Positions 17,764 through 56,841 of a stretch of 64,000 nt of DNA are shown here, in pieces. The position numbers and the translations under genes are program-made. The notes under the pieces are model-generated. The model ran no database searches. It saw only the letters and a program-made list of their open reading frames with translations, and had not been told where the DNA came from. Every line of letters begins with the position of its first letter. Positions within the stretch are counted from its first letter, which is position 1. The stretch is taken from assembly GCF_002160865.1 (NCBI RefSeq), contig NZ_NFLJ01000009.1, forward strand, positions 1 through 64,000. Reading direction: 5' to 3'. Origin of the DNA: Massiliimicrobium timonense. GTDB taxonomy: Bacteria; Bacillota_I; Bacilli_A; Erysipelotrichales; Coprobacillaceae.

Positions 17764-17787
17764 ATAAAAAAACAGACAAATGTCTGC
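17764..17787 (-). terminator. Terminator of the gmk-cdd gene group
   Basis: On the minus strand GCAGACA pairs with TGTCTG through a short loop and is followed by seven T residues, directly behind the cdd stop. Confidence 0.8.
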
Positions 17788-17788
17788 T

Positions 17789-18220
17789 TTATGACTTCTG
17801 TTCTTGATAACGTTCTTCACCCCACCATAAAGGTAAAAGTTCTTTTAATGTGACAATTTCACGTGTTTGATAATCCACCATAATTTCCATGTCTTGATTC
17901 TTTTCATTAAGCTGCATAAAAAACTCACGACAAGCTCCACATGGCATTCCACTCCCTTTACCAAAAGGAGGCTGATCACGAAAGGCTATCATTCTTTTGA
18001 CAACAGTCTGTTGACTTTGAATATACATATTTAACGCCGCAACTCTTTCAGCACATAAATCCATCACACCGGCACAACTTTCTATACAAAAGCCGGTATA
18101 AATCTCACCATTTTCACTTTCTAATGCACAAACGACATGATGAGCGTAAATAAAAGGTGAAACCTCTTGAGGATGATATTGTTCTTTAGCTTTTTGATAT
18201 AACTTTTCCCATATATCCAT
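17789..18220 (-). CDS. cdd: Cytidine deaminase-like protein
   Basis: The product (143 residues) belongs to the zinc-dependent cytidine deaminase fold, which deaminates cytidine or deoxycytidine for pyrimidine salvage. CAERVA carries the zinc cysteine and catalytic glutamate, and PCGACREF carries the other two zinc cysteines. It diverges from standard Cdd in the substrate loop (ESCAGVMDLCAER instead of the usual N-ENASY-G), so a blasticidin-deaminase-like relative with another substrate is possible. GGAGGAAT precedes the ATG. It lies three bases after the zinc-ribbon gene. Confidence 0.82.
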   Translation of the reverse strand: MDIWEKLYQKAKEQYHPQEVSPFIYAHHVVCALESENGEIYTGFCIESCAGVMDLCAERVAALNMYIQSQQTVVKRMIAFRDQPPFGKGSGMPCGACREFFMQLNEKNQDMEIMVDYQTREIVTLKELLPLWWGEERYQEQKS

Positions 18221-18426: not shown

Positions 18427-18977
18427 AACTTTACTCCTTTGAATTGACGATAAAGATATGCCAGAAGCATTCCAATAATAAAACTAATGAAATGAATAAC
18501 AAATGTTGATATATTGTTTGAAAAGAAAGGAATTTGTGCAAATATCACATAAACAATAATCCATTTTCCATAAAGAGAACGAAAATGAAATTTTGGTAAA
18601 ATAGAACGCATTATCAAAATGAACCCTAACAAACTAAAGATAACAGGTGACCCTCCAACACTGGTACTTTCTGGATAAATCAAACTAAAAATAATGTGAG
18701 CAATTGTCCCTCCAAGCAAAGATATAAAAAATAAAGTTCCTGCTTTTATACGCTGGTCAATATAGATATCAAGATATGAAATCGCTAGAGCATTCACAGC
18801 AAAATGTAAAAGATTCACATGTAAAAATAACCCTGTTATCAAACGATAATATTCATGATGAATGATTTGAAAACCTTTGTTGCTTAAAGCATCAAACCAT
18901 GATGTCTGCATACCAACAATCAAAAAGATAAGCCATATGCCTATCCATAAATAACTCATTTTCCATCTCATCATCAT
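18423..18977 (-). CDS. Rhomboid-family intramembrane serine protease
   Basis: Rhomboid proteases cleave transmembrane substrates within the membrane. The 184-residue protein has about six hydrophobic segments. It carries the catalytic residues: H53, H58 and N62 in HVNLLHFAVN, Ser110 in GGSPVIF (family GxSx) and H162 in the last helix. It is thus a minimal six-helix type, expected to be active. Three consecutive in-frame ATG codons start the gene; AGGAG is best spaced for the third (18971). It follows the gmk terminator, so its expression probably depends on readthrough from gmk. Confidence 0.87.
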   Translation of the reverse strand: MMMRWKMSYLWIGIWLIFLIVGMQTSWFDALSNKGFQIIHHEYYRLITGLFLHVNLLHFAVNALAISYLDIYIDQRIKAGTLFFISLLGGTIAHIIFSLIYPESTSVGGSPVIFSLLGFILIMRSILPKFHFRSLYGKWIIVYVIFAQIPFFSNNISTFVIHFISFIIGMLLAYLYRQFKGVKL

Positions 18978-19587: not shown

Positions 19588-19616
19588 ATACTACATGAAT
19601 GTAACTTTAATGTCAA
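19588..19616 (-). promoter_or_regulatory. gmk: Sigma-A promoter of gmk, back-to-back with the rqcH promoter
   Basis: On the minus strand TTGACA (19611-19616) and TAGTAT (19588-19593) are separated by 17 bases. The divergent rqcH gene has a candidate -10 TATACT at 19634-19639 on the plus strand, so the two promoters share little more than 50 bases. Confidence 0.7.
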
Positions 19617-19657
19617 TTCTTTTTGAAATATGTTATACTATTTAACGGTGATGAAAA

Positions 19658-21298
19658 ATGGCTTATGACGGAATTATGTTATCTCGTGTTGTAGAACAGC
19701 TACAAAATCAAATCACACGAGGAAGAATTAATAAAATATATCAAATTTCACAATATGAACTTTTGTTTCATATTCGTGCTCAAAGAGAGAATTACAAATT
19801 ACTCATTTCAATACATCCTGTTTATGCGAGAATGCAATTGACACAGTTAAGTTATCCAACTCCTGCATCTCCTAATGCTTTAACGATGTTATTAAGAAAG
19901 CATCTGGAAGGGGCATATATTGAAAAAATAACACAAATGCAGCTAGATCGTATTGTTGATATTGAAATAATTGGTGTCAATGAATTAAAGGATACAGTAA
20001 AATATCACATTTATTTAGAAATCATGGGAAAACACTCAAATGCTATTTTAACATATCACAACAATAAAATTATTGATTGTTTAAAACGTGTTTCCCCTTC
20101 TATGAGTGCTCGTATTTTACAACCCGGTGCAATATATCAAAAACCACCTTTAATTGAAAAATACAACCCTTATACAACAGATTGGATAGAAACAGATAAT
20201 TTAACCAAAACATATCAGGGATTCTCTCCAGAATTATCTAAAGAAGTTTTATATCGCATGGATCATGGAGAAGCATTCCATGATATTATCACGTTACTCC
20301 ATCATTCCACAACATTGTATATTCATAAAAAAGAAGATAAGGAATATTTCCATGTTATTCCTCTTACACATTTACATCAGGAGTATACGGCTTATCCGCT
20401 TTTTGATGGCTTAGATCAACATTATGATTTAATCGATGAAAAAGATCGTATTAAACAACAAACATCGGATTTAGCTAAATTCATTCAAAATGAATATCAA
20501 AGAAATGTTCATAAATTAAACAAACTACAACAGACATTATTTGAATCCCAAAATAGTGATGATTTACGTATTAAAGGAGATTTGTTGTTTGCTAATTTAC
20601 ATTTATTAAAAAAAGGACAAAAAGAAATCACTGTAGAAAATTATTATGATGGTACAATGATGACGATTCCTTTAGATGAAAGATATGATGGAAAGACAAA
20701 TGCCAATAAATATTACGCTAAATATCAAAAAGCAAAAAAAGCATTATCCCATCTTCAAGAACAAATTCAAATTACAGAAAATGAAATTCATTATTTTGAT
20801 ACTTTAATCACAATGATGGATAACGCTTCTTATTATGATGCTTTAGAGATTAAAGAAGAATTAGAGAATTTAGGTTATCTCAAAAAGAAAAAAACAAAAC
20901 AGGTGCATAGACCTCAAAAACTTCATATAGAAACCTATATAACTAAAGATCAGATTCCTATTTATGTAGGTAAGAATAATCTGCAAAATGATTACCTTAC
21001 CTTTAAGATGGCTGCCAAAAATGATATGTGGTTTCATGTCAAAGACATGCCTGGAAGCCATGTTGTTGTGCATAGTCAGAATTTAGATGAATATACCATT
21101 CGTCTTGCCAGTCAATTAGCCGCCTATTTTTCTAAAGGAAAGCACAGTTCGTCCGTACCTGTAAATTATACATTAGTCAAAACATTGAAAAAGCCACAAG
21201 GTGGTAAACCTGGTCAGGTGATATTATCTCATTATTCAACCATTTACATTGATCCTGATGAAAGTCTTTTTAACGATATCCATAAGGTGAATTCATAG
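19658..21298 (+). CDS. rqcH: Ribosome-associated quality-control factor RqcH (NFACT family)
   Basis: RqcH binds 50S subunits carrying a stalled peptidyl-tRNA and recruits tRNA-Ala to add a C-terminal alanine tail that marks the chain for ClpXP degradation. The 546-residue protein has the NFACT-N domain starting MAYDGIMLSRVVEQL, the conserved Asp97-Arg98 pair (QLDRIV) known to be needed for tailing, a helix-hairpin and coiled-coil middle, and the C-terminal NFACT-R domain with NDMWFHVKDMPGSH. GGTGA precedes the ATG. The 3' end overlaps the convergent coat-like gene by 29 bases, and no terminator follows, so the transcript probably continues towards pgeF. Confidence 0.95.
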   Translation: MAYDGIMLSRVVEQLQNQITRGRINKIYQISQYELLFHIRAQRENYKLLISIHPVYARMQLTQLSYPTPASPNALTMLLRKHLEGAYIEKITQMQLDRIVDIEIIGVNELKDTVKYHIYLEIMGKHSNAILTYHNNKIIDCLKRVSPSMSARILQPGAIYQKPPLIEKYNPYTTDWIETDNLTKTYQGFSPELSKEVLYRMDHGEAFHDIITLLHHSTTLYIHKKEDKEYFHVIPLTHLHQEYTAYPLFDGLDQHYDLIDEKDRIKQQTSDLAKFIQNEYQRNVHKLNKLQQTLFESQNSDDLRIKGDLLFANLHLLKKGQKEITVENYYDGTMMTIPLDERYDGKTNANKYYAKYQKAKKALSHLQEQIQITENEIHYFDTLITMMDNASYYDALEIKEELENLGYLKKKKTKQVHRPQKLHIETYITKDQIPIYVGKNNLQNDYLTFKMAAKNDMWFHVKDMPGSHVVVHSQNLDEYTIRLASQLAAYFSKGKHSSSVPVNYTLVKTLKKPQGGKPGQVILSHYSTIYIDPDESLFNDIHKVNS

Positions 21299-21548
21299 AA
21301 GCATTGACAAATGTTTGTTCATAAGCAGGATAAAAGACTGGGTAATACATACAATGGTTAACACGACGACATTCAATAGGACAAATCACAGGTTGCGGAA
21401 CAGGTGTAATTTGATTTGTTACACAAACTTTTTTAGGAGCTACTAAAGGTTGTGGTCGTGGACAACCATTCATATATCCATTATTCATTTGTTGAGCCTG
21501 ACATGAACATGAGTTCATGTTTTGGCAACCACAAGATTGTTGAAACAT
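21270..21548 (-). CDS. CotD-like cysteine-rich spore coat protein, antisense between rqcH and pgeF
   Basis: The 92-residue protein is rich in Cys, Pro, Asn, Gln, Met and Tyr. Eight cysteines lie in the first half and at CPIEC. The region TPVPQPVICPIECRRVNHC followed by YYPVFYP resembles the IVPHIHP...NH...HYFP pattern of CotD-type coat proteins. No signal peptide is present, as expected for a coat protein made in the mother cell. GAAGGAGGG lies seven bases before the ATG, and a possible sporulation-sigma -10 box lies upstream. Its 3' end overlaps rqcH by 29 bases tail to tail. Family assignment rests on composition and pattern only. Confidence 0.62.
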   Translation of the reverse strand: MFQQSCGCQNMNSCSCQAQQMNNGYMNGCPRPQPLVAPKKVCVTNQITPVPQPVICPIECRRVNHCMYYPVFYPAYEQTFVNASMNSPYGYR

Positions 21549-21570
21549 TATTCATCCCTCCTTCACTATT

Positions 21571-21579
21571 TAATGTATG
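21571..21579 (-). promoter_or_regulatory. Possible sigma-E/sigma-K -10 element of the coat-like gene
   Basis: CATACATTA on the minus strand fits both the sigma-E -10 consensus CATACAnT and the sigma-K -10 consensus CATAnnnTA. It lies 22 bases before the start codon. I see no convincing -35, so the call rests on the -10 and on the nature of the gene. Confidence 0.4.
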
Positions 21580-21620
21580 TCAAAACATCAAAAGAGGCAG
21601 GGCTTTTGAAAGGAGTCATT

Positions 21621-22376
21621 ATGAAATTAATAGAATGGAATTGTTTTAATGAAATAGAAGCTTATACAACTTGTCGCGAAGATCATGGACGCATCATGAA
21701 TATGAGCTTTAATGGCATTGATGATCAGCAAGTTTTAGAAAATCGTCAACGCTTAGCCAAAACACTTCATAGCGATCTTTCTCAAATGGTCGCCACTTTA
21801 CAACAACACACTACACGTTTTATTGAAGTCCATCATAGTGATGGTGGTAGAGGAATGTGGAGTCGTGATGATGCTTTGATTGGTTATGATGCGATGTATA
21901 CAAGAGATCGTCATTTATGGTTATGGACTTTTCATGCTGATTGTTGTCCTGTTTTATTGTATTGTCGAGATCAAAAAATTGTGGCTGCCATTCATTCAGG
22001 ATGGAAAGGAACAGTAGGTGAAATCGTTAAAAAAGTAACACAGCATTTAATTGAAAATGAAGGATGTCAGCCACAACATATTTATGCTTATATTGGTCCT
22101 TCCATTGAACAACGTCATTTTGAAGCCAAAGATGATATTATTGATTTAGTCAAGAAAATGTCTTTTGATACAAGTCGCTTTTATATTCAAAAAGAAGATG
22201 GAGCTTATCTTTTAGACAGTAAAGGATTAATTCAACAACAATTATTAGAATTACACGTTCCACAAAGTCATATTACAGTTTCTCCTTATTGTACAATAGA
22301 AAATGAGGACCTCTTTTTCTCCTATCGTCGAGATAAAAGTCCTCATCGTCATATTACACTGATTTCTCTAAAGTAA
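21621..22376 (+). CDS. pgeF: Peptidoglycan editing factor PgeF (YlmD/YfiH, DUF152)
   Basis: PgeF-family proteins are copper/zinc oxidoreductase-like enzymes; in E. coli PgeF prevents wrong amino acids (L-Ser for L-Ala) in the stem peptide, and homologues act as multi-copper laccases or purine nucleosidases. The 251-residue protein has the three conserved metal ligands H71, C108 (HADCCPVLL) and H125 (HSGWKGT). The ATG at 21621 follows AAAGGAG; longer in-frame readings have no ribosome site and would cross the divergent coat-gene start. In B. subtilis ylmD lies in the sigG-divIVA cluster; here it has moved next to rqcH. Confidence 0.93.
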   Translation: MKLIEWNCFNEIEAYTTCREDHGRIMNMSFNGIDDQQVLENRQRLAKTLHSDLSQMVATLQQHTTRFIEVHHSDGGRGMWSRDDALIGYDAMYTRDRHLWLWTFHADCCPVLLYCRDQKIVAAIHSGWKGTVGEIVKKVTQHLIENEGCQPQHIYAYIGPSIEQRHFEAKDDIIDLVKKMSFDTSRFYIQKEDGAYLLDSKGLIQQQLLELHVPQSHITVSPYCTIENEDLFFSYRRDKSPHRHITLISLK

Positions 22377-23856
22377 CCTTCGGGTTACTTTTTATCATCT
22401 CATCCATCACTTCTGGTAAGTGTTCAATGAGGCGTGATGGCAGCACTGTATAAGCTTTTTTGGCTAATTGTTCACCAGTATACCCATGTATGAAAACACC
22501 TAATAAAGCTGCCTGTATGGCTTGATAACCTTGTCCTAAAAAACTTGTAATGATACCTGCTAAAACATCTCCCATACCCCCTGTCGCCATTGCTTTATGA
22601 CCTGCCATAACACGATATGATTCATATCCATTCGTCACTATTGTATATGGTCCTTTTAAAACCAATGTCACATGATATGTTTTCGCAAAATTTTGTGCTA
22701 TTTCCAGCATATCATCATCATCTTGAAAAGGACATAAACGCTGAAATTCCCCTAAATGGGGCGTTAAGATAATATCACGCTTTTGATTTTTTAATAAATC
22801 AACATGAGCCGATAAAATTGTTAAAGCATCCCCATCAATAACCAGTGGCTGATGTGTTTTTTCCAATAAGTCAATAACATAACGATAGCTATCTAAGCTT
22901 TGTCCTAAGCCACATCCAATCAATAATGCATCATATTTCACAAAATCATCTTTTTGTAAAACAGGTGGTCTTAAAACAGCTGTTGCCTCTGGACAAAACT
23001 GTGTCAAAGCATTAATAACACTTTCATCGCTCATAACAGTCGTAATCCCACTTCCACTATAGACACAACTTTTAGCACTCAGTAAAGCCGCACCTTTATA
23101 CTCCTGACATCCTGTAATCAGACAAGTATATCCATATGTTCCTTTATAACCATCAAAGACTCTTTCTTTTAATAATGGAATGATCATCTTTGCATTGCCC
23201 ATTTGATACAAACCAGCTGCCTCTCCAACATCTCTTGCATCAAGCATTTCAACAATGACTTCTCCCGTAAAAAAGCGACTATCGGGATTCAAAAAACCAT
23301 TTTTTATCGCACTCAAAGTTATTGTCTTCGTTGCATAAACAACACTTTGATAAGGCTTCCCTGTATTACATTGTAACCCTGTTGGAATATCCACAGCAAT
23401 CACTTCATGATCATATAACTGATTTATTTCTTCAATGACACTTTGATAAATTCCTCTTGGACAACTGTTTAACCCAAACCCAAAAATTGCATCCACAATG
23501 GTTTCACATGAATCCATACATTGAATCAGTGCATCTAAATTATCCTGTTGAAATAAAGAAACAGGGATAGATAAATCATAACATTGTTGTAGATAATATA
23601 AATTGGCTTGAGAAAGATGTTCGCCATTATCAAAGATAAAAACATGAACTTCTTTTTTTTGTTGAAAGAGCTTGATAGCAAGAGATAAACCATCCGCCCC
23701 ATTATTGCCTGGTCCACAGACAATTGCAAAAGAATGACCTGACATATGTTTATACAAACAATCACTTGCTTTATCCACCAGTTCTTCAATAGTATATCCC
23801 TGTTCTAATAAACAGGCATCATATCTTTTCATCAAAGCCTGACTTCCAATATACAT
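22354..23856 (-). CDS. nnr: Bifunctional NAD(P)HX epimerase / ADP-dependent NAD(P)HX dehydratase
   Basis: This fused enzyme repairs hydrated NADH and NADPH. The 500-residue protein has an N-terminal YjeF_N epimerase domain (CGPGNNGADGLSLAIKL, AVDIPTGL) and a C-terminal ribokinase-like dehydratase domain (LTPHLGEF, VIDGDALTIL, GGMGDVLAGIITS). I chose ATG at 23856 because GAGGTGATAG precedes it; the in-frame ATG at 23880 has no ribosome site. The 3' end overlaps pgeF by 23 bases, tail to tail, and contains the pgeF terminator hairpin. Confidence 0.95.
   Translation of the reverse strand: MYIGSQALMKRYDACLLEQGYTIEELVDKASDCLYKHMSGHSFAIVCGPGNNGADGLSLAIKLFQQKKEVHVFIFDNGEHLSQANLYYLQQCYDLSIPVSLFQQDNLDALIQCMDSCETIVDAIFGFGLNSCPRGIYQSVIEEINQLYDHEVIAVDIPTGLQCNTGKPYQSVVYATKTITLSAIKNGFLNPDSRFFTGEVIVEMLDARDVGEAAGLYQMGNAKMIIPLLKERVFDGYKGTYGYTCLITGCQEYKGAALLSAKSCVYSGSGITTVMSDESVINALTQFCPEATAVLRPPVLQKDDFVKYDALLIGCGLGQSLDSYRYVIDLLEKTHQPLVIDGDALTILSAHVDLLKNQKRDIILTPHLGEFQRLCPFQDDDDMLEIAQNFAKTYHVTLVLKGPYTIVTNGYESYRVMAGHKAMATGGMGDVLAGIITSFLGQGYQAIQAALLGVFIHGYTGEQLAKKAYTVLPSRLIEHLPEVMDEMIKSNPKVTLEKSV
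22371..22395 (+). terminator. Terminator of pgeF inside the nnr coding end
   Basis: AAGTAACC and GGTTACTT form a perfect eight-pair stem around a TTCG loop (22371-22390), followed by T residues. The stem contains the pgeF stop codon and encodes the last residues of nnr on the other strand. Confidence 0.8.
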
Positions 23857-23891
23857 TTCTATCACCTCATTTTCTTTCATTATACCAAAAT

Positions 23892-23931: not shown

Positions 23932-25356
23932 TTAATATCTTACACCACAAGTAAATCCACTTAGACTTGTGTAGCTAACAACAGCCCCACTATGTGGAGA
24001 GTGAATAACTCTACCACCACCTACGTAGATTCCTACATGACCTGGACGCCAAACAATATCACCTGGTTTTACTTTAGATAGAGAAATTGTTCTTCCTCCA
24101 CTCTTTTGTGCACTAGATGTACGCGGGATACTCTTACCGTTTTTACGATATACCCATTGAGTAAATCCTGAACAGTCAAATGAACTTGGTCCAGTCGCAC
24201 CCCATTTGTATGGGCATCCTAATCGTGATTTTGCAGTAGCTACCATTCCTTTATTAGGAGCAATATCATCTGGATTAACAACTGTGACTTTCAAAGATTT
24301 AGAAGTTGAATTTCCAGCTTTATCTGACACACTGTATGTGACTGTATACTTACCAGCTTTTTTTGTGTTAACAGAACTACTGATTTTGACTTTAGAAGTC
24401 AGATTTCCATCTTTGTTGTCAGTTGCACTCTCTAGATATTTCTTAGCACTAAAGCTCTTACCTTTTGTAATTTCAACTGAAGATTTAGATAAACTAATCT
24501 TCGGTGCACTTAAGTCACCAACATTTACTGTTAATGATTTTTCAGATGTATTTCCAGAAGAATCTTTAGCAGTAATTTTTAAAGTTGTTTTACCATCCTT
24601 TTTCGTATTTACTGTTCCATCTACATCAATAGATTTAACAGTCTTATCAAAGTTATCTGAAACTTTGACATAATCTGAATAGTCAAACTGAGAACCATAG
24701 TCTACTGTAACTGTAGATCCCTTCTTGTAACTAATCGTAGGTGCAGTTGTATCTGAAACATAGAATTCAAATGTTTGTTGTGTTGTATTTCCGGCATTAT
24801 CAGAAACACTCAATTCAATCATTTGTGATCCTAATTTTGAAGTATCAAGTTTCTTATTTGTTTCAATGAATGGTGTGACATCACCATCAACATTGTCTGA
24901 AGCATTGACATATTGTGCCACATCTTTACTTCCATTCGCTTCCACATTAATAACATAACCTTGACTTCCACCTACTGGCTTCAATTCAGGAGCTGTTTTA
25001 TCAACAACTTCTACTTGAACAACCTTTGTACTTATATTTGAGAACATATCGGTTGCAGTTACTTCGACGTTATATATACCTAATTGATATGCATCATATG
25101 ATGTATCATCAATCTTTACATCCATAGCGTCTAGGGAATCACGATTATCAGAAATAGCGAACATCGTCTTATCTAGCTTTGTTCCATAAAGAACTTCAAT
25201 CTTATTAGCTTCGATTGTTGGTTTTTCTTTATCAACAGCTGCATAACCAACCAAACCAAATGTTGAAATACATAACATCGGAATGAACATGGCTTTACGT
25301 TTTAAAACATGTTCTTGCATCATTTCTAATAAATTCGTCTTAATATTACTATCCAT
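23932..25356 (-). CDS. Exported NlpC/P60 peptidoglycan endopeptidase with four Ig-like repeats
   Basis: This 474-residue protein has a membrane-spanning signal segment at about 23-41, four immunoglobulin-like (bacterial Ig, HYR-type) repeats with recurring SDN..D and D.AGN.S patterns at about 43-366, and a C-terminal NlpC/P60 domain at about 371-474. The catalytic Cys395 (FDCSGF) and His440 (RPGHVGIYVG) are present, with a third polar residue near H452. Such enzymes cut gamma-D-Glu-diamino-acid bonds in stem peptides. ATG at 25356 follows AAAGGAGGC. It has its own promoter and terminator. It could act in daughter-cell separation; the repeats probably space the enzyme from the membrane. Confidence 0.92.
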   Translation of the reverse strand: MDSNIKTNLLEMMQEHVLKRKAMFIPMLCISTFGLVGYAAVDKEKPTIEANKIEVLYGTKLDKTMFAISDNRDSLDAMDVKIDDTSYDAYQLGIYNVEVTATDMFSNISTKVVQVEVVDKTAPELKPVGGSQGYVINVEANGSKDVAQYVNASDNVDGDVTPFIETNKKLDTSKLGSQMIELSVSDNAGNTTQQTFEFYVSDTTAPTISYKKGSTVTVDYGSQFDYSDYVKVSDNFDKTVKSIDVDGTVNTKKDGKTTLKITAKDSSGNTSEKSLTVNVGDLSAPKISLSKSSVEITKGKSFSAKKYLESATDNKDGNLTSKVKISSSVNTKKAGKYTVTYSVSDKAGNSTSKSLKVTVVNPDDIAPNKGMVATAKSRLGCPYKWGATGPSSFDCSGFTQWVYRKNGKSIPRTSSAQKSGGRTISLSKVKPGDIVWRPGHVGIYVGGGRVIHSPHSGAVVSYTSLSGFTCGVRY

Positions 25357-25390
25357 TCGTTGCCTCCTTTCAATAATATACCCAATTAGA

Positions 25391-25445
25391 ATTATAAAAC
25401 AACGTTCACAAAAAGTCCACAACTTTCTTAAGAAATTCTTAAGAA
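25391..25445 (-). promoter_or_regulatory. Promoter of the NlpC/P60 gene with two tandem palindromes
   Basis: On the minus strand TATAAT (25391-25396) has a weak -35 (TGGACT) 17 bases upstream. Two copies of the palindrome TTCTTAAGAA, at 25425-25434 and 25436-25445, lie just upstream and are spaced 11 bases centre to centre, one helical turn. They could be a regulator operator. Confidence 0.5.
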
Positions 25446-55321: not shown

Positions 55322-56104
55322 TTATCTGGTCATATATTTCTTTAAATGGGATAAAGCCTGTTTTTCTATGCGTGAAACCTGTGCCTGTGAAATCATTAAG
55401 TCCTTAGCAATTTCACTTTGTGTAAAGCCTTCAAAATAACGTTCTTTGATAATGCGTAATTCTTTTTGATCGAGATGATGCATAGCTTTTTGTAAATCAA
55501 TCGATCTTTGCATATCATCCATAGCGTTATGATGGTCAGGAATTTGACTTTCTAAATCAATCGGACCATTTCCATCATTTTGAACTTCCTGAGATAAAGA
55601 AGATACATTATGTGTCGATGACAGAGCTTCAACAAGCGTATATTCGTCTATTTTCAATAAACGGGACAGTTCTTGAAAAGAAGCTTCACGATGATGTTTT
55701 TTCAAATAATCTTCATTCATCACTAAAGCCTTATAAGCAATATCTCGTAAAGAACGTGGAATACGCATAGGTGAACTTTCTCGTAAGTAGCGTTTCATTT
55801 CTCCTAATATCAAAGGAACCGCATAGGTAGAAAATCGAACTTCTAAAGACGTATCAAAATGATCGATAGCTTTGATTAACCCAATGACACCAACTTGAAA
55901 TAAATCATCTAAATTACTCACACGCTGTTGATATTTTTGAACAAGAGATAAAACCAGTTTTAAATTAGAAAGAACAAGTTTTTCTTTTATCTGTGGGTCT
56001 TGATTTTGTTGATATAATTTCAACAATTCCATTGTTTGATGATATGATAACTGTTCAAATCGTTCAACATCATTTCCATTCAAATCAACTTTATATCTTG
56101 ACAT
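55322..56104 (-). CDS. sigG: Forespore RNA-polymerase sigma factor sigma-G
   Basis: Sigma-G drives late forespore genes. The 260-residue protein starts MSRYKVDLNG and has region 2 (LVLSNLKLVLSLVQKYQQR, DDLFQVGVIGLIKAIDHFD, RFSTYAVPLILGEMKRYLRE), region 3 (PRSLRDIAYKAL) and region 4 with the helix-turn-helix SEIAKDLMISQAQVSRIEKQA. The start and ILGEMKRYLRESSPMRIPRSL block identify sigma-G rather than sigma-F. It follows sigE by 44 bases, the classic order. The start ATG has GAGGAG upstream. A weak hairpin can pair AACTC with GAGTT over the ribosome site. Confidence 0.95.
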   Translation of the reverse strand: MSRYKVDLNGNDVERFEQLSYHQTMELLKLYQQNQDPQIKEKLVLSNLKLVLSLVQKYQQRVSNLDDLFQVGVIGLIKAIDHFDTSLEVRFSTYAVPLILGEMKRYLRESSPMRIPRSLRDIAYKALVMNEDYLKKHHREASFQELSRLLKIDEYTLVEALSSTHNVSSLSQEVQNDGNGPIDLESQIPDHHNAMDDMQRSIDLQKAMHHLDQKELRIIKERYFEGFTQSEIAKDLMISQAQVSRIEKQALSHLKKYMTR

Positions 56105-56148
56105 GGATTCAACTCCTCATAACAGAGTTTCTCCATTTTTATTTGACA

Positions 56149-56841
56149 TTATTCATCATCTTTCAATTTATTTCTTAATTTTTTTATAATTTTTTTCTCC
56201 AGTCTTGAAATATATGATTGAGAAATTCCCAATATTTCAGCCACATCTTTTTGTGTTAATTCTTCATGCCCTATCAAACCATAACGCATCATTAAAATTT
56301 GTTGTTCTCTAGGATTTAAATAATGCAAAGCATGATAAAATTTTTCCTTTTGATCATTATGTTCAATCTCATCTTGAACAATATCTTTATCCGTACCAAT
56401 AATATCTGATAATAAGAGTTCATTTCCATCATAATCAACATTTAATGGTTCATCTAAAGAGATTTCTTGTCTTAATTTATTATTTTTTCTTAAAAACATG
56501 AGAATTTCATTTTCAATACAACGTGAAGCATATGTCGCCAATTTAATATTTTTATCCATATTAAAAGTATTCACTGCTTTAACCAGCCCAATCGTTCCAA
56601 TACTAATTAAATCCTCAATATTTCCATTTTGCATAGAATCATACTTTTTAGCTACATAGACAACTAACCTTAAGTTATGTTCAATCAGTAAATCTTTAGC
56701 ATCTTCATCACCATTTTGTAGTTTTAATAAGGCTTCCTTTTCTTCTTTTCCCTTTAAAGGTGCTTTTAATACATCATGTCTACCAATATAAAACAGTGAT
56801 TTCTTTTTAGTAAACCATTCCTTTAACAACAGTAAAATCAT
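56149..56841 (-). CDS. sigE: Mother-cell RNA-polymerase sigma factor sigma-E (pro-form)
   Basis: Sigma-E directs early mother-cell transcription after cleavage of an N-terminal pro-sequence by SpoIIGA. The 230-residue protein has region 2 ([53 protein letters not shown]), the acidic SLDEPLN segment and region 4 ([22 protein letters not shown]), all close to sigma-E. The pro-region is short: [20 protein letters not shown], with FYIG at 17-20 aligning to the VYYIGG at the B. subtilis cleavage site. GGGAGGG precedes the ATG. It overlaps spoIIGA by four bases. Confidence 0.95.

Follow-up and report, generated by a model that had tools for sequence, protein, structure and literature searches.

rqcH-(cot)-pgeF, a predicted non-contiguous operon enclosing a coat gene with a putative SigK-type promoter

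What happens to the transcripts of a small coat-like gene that is placed antisense between two co-oriented genes, rqcH and pgeF? The locus was analyzed within a window of 64,000 nt, i.e. the whole stretch of DNA under study. The upstream gene, rqcH (19658-21298, plus strand), encodes an NFACT family protein, i.e. an RqcH-type ribosome quality-control protein (PF05833, E 2.8e-121, and PF05670). The downstream gene, pgeF (21621-22376, plus strand, start ATG at 21621), encodes the peptidoglycan editing factor of 251 aa (PF02578, E 3.8e-58; TIGR00726, 160.7 bits versus a cut-off of 141.15) and is preceded by the ribosome-binding site AAAGGAG (21609-21615). The gene in between, here denoted cot (21270-21548, minus strand, 92 aa), is head-to-head with pgeF, with a 72-nt gap between the two starts, and tail-to-tail with rqcH, so that both reading frames share 29 nt (21270-21298). 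Its ribosome-binding site AAGGAGGG (21563-21556, minus strand) is near-ideal and conserved in relatives; the antisense gene of 92 codons, its overlap and its ribosome site, as described in an earlier note on this DNA, were thus all recovered. The overlap alone is nothing unusual, as pgeF likewise shares 23 nt with the next gene of the window, 22354-23880 on the minus strand. The latter gene encodes an NAD(P)H-hydrate dehydratase, the tail-to-tail overlap spans 22354-22376, and the pgeF terminator begins at its end. Near the locus, 23932-25422 (minus strand) encodes a protein with Ig-like repeats and an NlpC/P60 peptidase domain at its C-terminus. At the other side, overlapping divergent SigA-like promoters for rqcH (plus) and gmk (minus) are located at 19588-19639 (ATGTCA-18-TATACT with an extended -10, and TTGACA-17-TAGTAT).

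The window genome has its near relatives in Massilimicrobiota, Stoquefichus, Longibaculum, and [Clostridium] spiroforme-like genomes. The gene is present in 32 of the 43 family genomes analyzed. In each of the 32, cot runs antisense and ends tail-to-tail with rqcH; wherever pgeF is on the same contig (31 genomes), cot and pgeF are head-to-head (in the remaining genome, G024, the locus is split over two contigs). The two start codons are separated by 67-84 nt where measured. For ten pairs of cot genes, dN/dS values of 0.07-0.19 were obtained. These values, together with the unchanged position and orientation of cot in 32 family genomes, show by sequence comparison that cot is a genuine gene and that its placement goes beyond chance; the earlier note had named a lack of conservation as an argument against the gene, and the opposite was found. 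A spurious reading frame that mirrors conserved sequence of the other strand would be in line with single-sequence searches of the window protein against Pfam and NCBIfam, which gave no match, but most of cot sits in the gap between rqcH and pgeF, over no gene, its ribosome-binding site and -10 element are conserved, and its presence tracks sporulation genes, so that, given also the dN/dS values, we rejected this reading as having a negligible probability.

Upstream of cot, the box CATANNNTA was found at 27 of 28 loci, compared to 0.7 expected in shuffled sequences (maximum 4). The box precedes the start codon by 28 ± 1.8 nt across the loci; in the window its instance is CATACATTA (21579-21571, minus strand), at 31 nt. 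The pattern, i.e. four fixed first letters, three free middle letters, and a fixed TA, appears to fit the SigK consensus better than that of SigE, which also fits. The possible sigma-E/K -10 box that had been proposed for the gene therefore gained weight, and the motif suggests a mother-cell promoter that is SigK-like rather than SigE-like. Comparison of the loci also delineated a conserved -35 region, GCCCTGCCTC in the window (21594-21603, minus strand). In 14 loci, the dinucleotide AC is found 15-17 nt upstream of the box. Most relatives in the clade that shares the rqcH/cot overlap have the -35 region GCCCTNAC, with AC 16-17 nt upstream of CATA, and the window has GC for AC. In all 27 box-bearing loci, a short block rich in C, mostly GCCC or GTCC and with one C invariant, is located about 22 nt upstream of CATANNNTA. 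This is the expected -35 position (21594-21603 in the window), and the block is possibly a family-specific -35 element or an activator site.

The phylogenetic distribution of cot follows that of sporulation genes. SpoIVA scored above the cut-off in 24 of 26 cot-containing versus none of 10 cot-less family genomes (Fisher p = 2.6e-7). Factors of the SigE/SigK type were strong in the cot-containing genomes, except for the draft genome G034, and the cot-less genomes yielded only a sigma-70-like background in this search. The two cot-containing genomes without SpoIVA and the one without strong SigE/SigK hits are perhaps incomplete draft genomes. The window itself contains sigma factor genes matching the SigK model (55745-56793, minus strand): 56164-56793 has the pattern expected of sigE, and one more sporulation sigma factor gene lies beside it.

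The protein has a Cys/Pro/Asn-rich N-terminus and the core QP.VAP..VC......V.QPVICPIECR.VN...YYP.YYP.YEQT. The earlier note had called it CotD-like and had proposed a profile search against coat families. At the gathering cut-off of PF11122 (CotD), the window protein has no match, the best of 19 relatives reached E 0.15, and no genome of the family contains a protein above the Pfam cut-off; a PDB profile search also gave no match. An alignment of the 19 cot relatives, A1, aligns with the PF11122 protein alignment in hhalign (probability 81%, E 1.2e-5, 47 gapless columns). In addition, the A1 profile searched against 395 genomes of the class retrieved proteins (E 4.5e-8, 2.3e-7, and 3.7e-7) that are themselves above the Pfam CotD cut-off. 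Because of the profile-profile match and these bridging proteins, cot is, as judged by remote homology, a divergent CotD relative, without formal PF11122 membership. The CotD-like label thus stands at the level of profile comparison, and not at that of direct Pfam or NCBIfam matches. CotD-type coat proteins are hereby extended to a gut family in which they are missed by curated models. As a side observation, small genomes of relatives (1.1-1.5 Mb, family f12; loci L120-L122) encode proteins that score above the CotD cut-off of Pfam, so that genes of the spore-coat type may occur in genomes of unexpectedly small size.

Next to the rqcH stop codon, transcription termination is the critical point. 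The packaged terminator scanner misses A-tract hairpins, as it consumes A-tract/T-tract stems, and thereby missed the clear intrinsic terminator of pgeF, AAGTAACC-TTCG-GGTTACTT-TTTAT (22371-22390, plus strand). Therefore, a custom scan was written, which has a background of 1-2% and detects terminators at four of the six convergent gene pairs in the window. With these positive controls, no intrinsic terminator was found on either strand of the rqcH/cot junction, and the packaged scanner gave the same result, in agreement with the earlier observation that no terminator follows rqcH. The convergent pair 25595-26101/26126-26845 likewise has no visible terminator. From rqcH onward, the plus strand contains only two candidates. 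The first is an imperfect 13-bp hairpin over the cot start (21518-21547, in a -12 kcal/mol region), which has no real T-run and is restricted to the window species and its nearest relative. The second is the pgeF terminator, the first strong one on the path of a transcript from rqcH. In the opposite direction, the first good terminator for an unstopped cot transcript is located at 17769-17790 (minus strand), with a weaker one at 18926-18946 (minus strand) in between. A search with TIGR00767 did not find Rho in the window genome; matches were obtained in two of 42 genomes and in eight of 14 controls. Rho is apparently missing from 40 of the 42 genomes searched, most of which belong to the same family and order, and occurs sporadically in G010 and G015. 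Our literature search yielded nothing useful on Rho loss in Erysipelotrichia or on sporulation in Massilimicrobiota. In B. subtilis, Rho suppresses antisense read-through of this kind and affects sporulation (PMC5540618). With neither a hairpin nor Rho, read-through from rqcH to pgeF is the default expectation.

The best overall explanation, which we regard as reasonably probable, is a coat gene of the SigK type that is enclosed in a predicted non-contiguous operon, rqcH-(cot)-pgeF. RNA polymerase leaving rqcH would continue antisense over all of cot into pgeF and stop at 22371-22390, so that during growth cot would be covered by an untranslated, antisense part of the rqcH-pgeF mRNA. Late in the mother cell, a SigK-type promoter in the 72 nt between cot and pgeF would switch on cot, and the cot transcript would run back antisense over rqcH. 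Unstopped until 18946-18926 (weak) or 17790-17769, it would enter gmk in sense direction. Co-transcription of rqcH and pgeF by read-through is itself predicted with somewhat more confidence than doubt. Of the features of a non-contiguous operon, an inverted gene between co-oriented genes is present, and the absence of a terminator between the flanking genes was found in the 15 genomes of the overlap clade and not in the 17 of the terminator clade.

These two groups represent two states of the rqcH/cot junction. In 17 family genomes, a bidirectional hairpin terminator, typically AAAAAAATAGATGC..GCATCTATTTTT, lies at a gap of 8-22 nt (for G013, the hairpin score refers to the cot strand only). 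In 15 genomes, including that of the window, the two genes overlap by 14-35 nt without a conserved hairpin (in G001, an earlier cot stop gives an overlap of about 20 nt). In a tree of rqcH plus pgeF, the genomes with the hairpin are basal, and those with the overlap form one clade (UFBoot 95). The sister of the overlap clade is a cot-less group of seven genomes (joint support 97), and two more cot-less lineages, G008 and G017, branch separately (support for the G017 placement, 79). In all nine cot-less genomes that have both genes, rqcH and pgeF abut or overlap, with spacings from an overlap of about 14 nt to a gap of 8 nt, suggesting that after the loss of cot the two genes function as a simple operon. 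This lends indirect support to the predicted co-transcription of rqcH and pgeF across cot.

Beyond the family, the tail-to-tail rqcH/cot pair was also found in G330, from another family of the same order, and in G381, from a different family of the class; in both, a hairpin lies between the two genes and the CATANNNTA box is present. Both have a YlbJ-like gene at the place that pgeF takes in the family. At L115:4108-7597 and L116:3557-6907, from two other families, cot is tail-to-tail with rqcH and its divergent neighbour is a YlbJ-like sporulation membrane gene, next to coaD or rsmD. The outgroup loci imply that the rqcH/cot pair is older than its pgeF neighbour, that the absence of cot within the family represents loss, and that the hairpin is the older state. 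Judged from these comparisons, the tail-to-tail rqcH/cot pair is ancient, and the YlbJ-flanked locus is apparently the older one, which pgeF entered later. In the clade of the window, the hairpin terminator was lost and replaced by the overlap of the frames, and in three asporogenous lineages cot was lost and rqcH-pgeF closed up. A conserved regulatory role of the antisense layout was rejected at this point, and as a conserved function the opposed transcription in growth and sporulation that the earlier note had envisaged is not supported. A bidirectional terminator between the two genes is found in the basal family members as well as in the two outgroups that have the pair, and mutual antisense transcription is thus at most a derived trait of one clade.

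Do the three genes need to be connected at all? They might be ordinary convergent neighbours: the rqcH and cot transcripts would end at most a few tens of bases apart, through ill-defined termination or because the polymerases collide, pgeF would have a promoter of its own inside the 5' end of cot, and the antisense RNA would be incidental noise. The pgeF overlap of 23 nt shows that such convergent overlaps are routine here, and the terminator of the basal relatives indicates that insulation was the older state. The earlier note had seen no clear pgeF promoter. The sole SigA-like match in the window, in the 5' end of cot, is indeed weak (TTGGCA-N18-CATTAT, 21522-21551, plus strand, 9 of 12), but it is a candidate, and some sister species have the stronger TTGACA-N18-CATAAT at this site. 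The latter could be a real pgeF promoter, and a weak independent pgeF promoter inside cot is possible. The SigA promoter scores for pgeF do not differ between the clades (means 6.9 versus 7.8, p = 0.36). A clear promoter is missing also in the terminator clade, where the hairpin would be expected to isolate pgeF from rqcH, so that its absence is no proof of a dependence on rqcH, and we dropped this argument. However, this SigA-like site is not conserved throughout the overlap clade and consists of codons of cot together with the start codon, neither a hairpin nor Rho is left to end the rqcH transcripts, and the next strong plus-strand terminator follows only after pgeF. We therefore regard independent neighbours as a serious but less probable alternative.

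A stronger version of the read-through model is a selected antisense switch (an excludon), in which the growth-phase rqcH-pgeF RNA silences leaky cot expression and the late cot RNA silences rqcH. The architecture fits known non-contiguous operons, in which the mRNA of the inverted gene is also an antisense RNA (PMC7154746), the loss of the terminator is fixed in 15 of 15 genomes of the clade, and in B. anthracis spore genes are reported to have dominant antisense reads in growing cells (PMC3425587). However, in the older state a terminator insulated the genes, so that a switch was not the cause of the gene adjacency, and a stringent sporulation promoter of cot would make silencing during growth redundant. 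Selection for such a switch thus appears unlikely. That either transcript measurably represses the other is speculative and rather doubtful, because cot has a stage-specific promoter and because convergent genes that lack termination also occur where this has no known function, as in Rickettsia (PMC3027695). It is a tentative suggestion, and no stronger, that the growth-phase rqcH-pgeF RNA and the late mother-cell coat RNA exclude each other, i.e. that the loss of a terminator in the absence of Rho created a sporulation-stage, cell-type-specific non-contiguous operon. The family keeps the steps from insulated to overlapping, and in the other three lineages the deletion of cot down to a plain operon. 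Functional antisense overlap is mostly claimed from a single genome; in the present family, every step is retained in some relatives, and Rho is missing. The sister genera allow a direct test of whether terminator loss leads to a regulatory antisense pair or to harmless read-through.

The favoured reading, a SigK-type coat gene within a predicted non-contiguous operon, can be compared with three known systems. The cot protein shares with CotD (PF11122) a core of P-x-V-x-P, followed by V-P-x-I-C-P, V-N-H, and Y-x-P-x-Y; a mother-cell promoter is predicted for cot, and within the family the gene is confined to spore formers. In contrast to CotD, the histidines are mostly replaced by Cys, Tyr, and Arg, the N-terminus has CGC-type repeats, and the score is below the Pfam cut-off. 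The S. aureus operon menE-menC-MW1733-ytkD-MW1731 is a non-contiguous operon for which co-transcription and reciprocal repression were measured (PMC7154746). As in that operon, an opposite gene lies between co-oriented genes and a polycistronic RNA would run antisense across the entire inner gene, whereas for rqcH-cot-pgeF co-transcription and repression are predictions and cot is a sporulation gene with a predicted stage-specific sigma promoter. In B. subtilis, comK lies inside the non-contiguous operon yhxD-yhzC (PMC11633097). There, too, a developmental gene is tail-to-tail with the upstream gene, read-through covers the inner gene and reaches the co-oriented gene (as predicted for cot), and an alternative sigma factor drives one side. 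However, the outer operon yhxD-yhzC uses SigB and its inner gene encodes a regulator, whereas in the cot locus it is the inner gene that is predicted to depend on an alternative sigma factor, and a terminator separated rqcH from cot in the older form. The arrangement is therefore of a known kind, and its evolutionary series is unusually complete.
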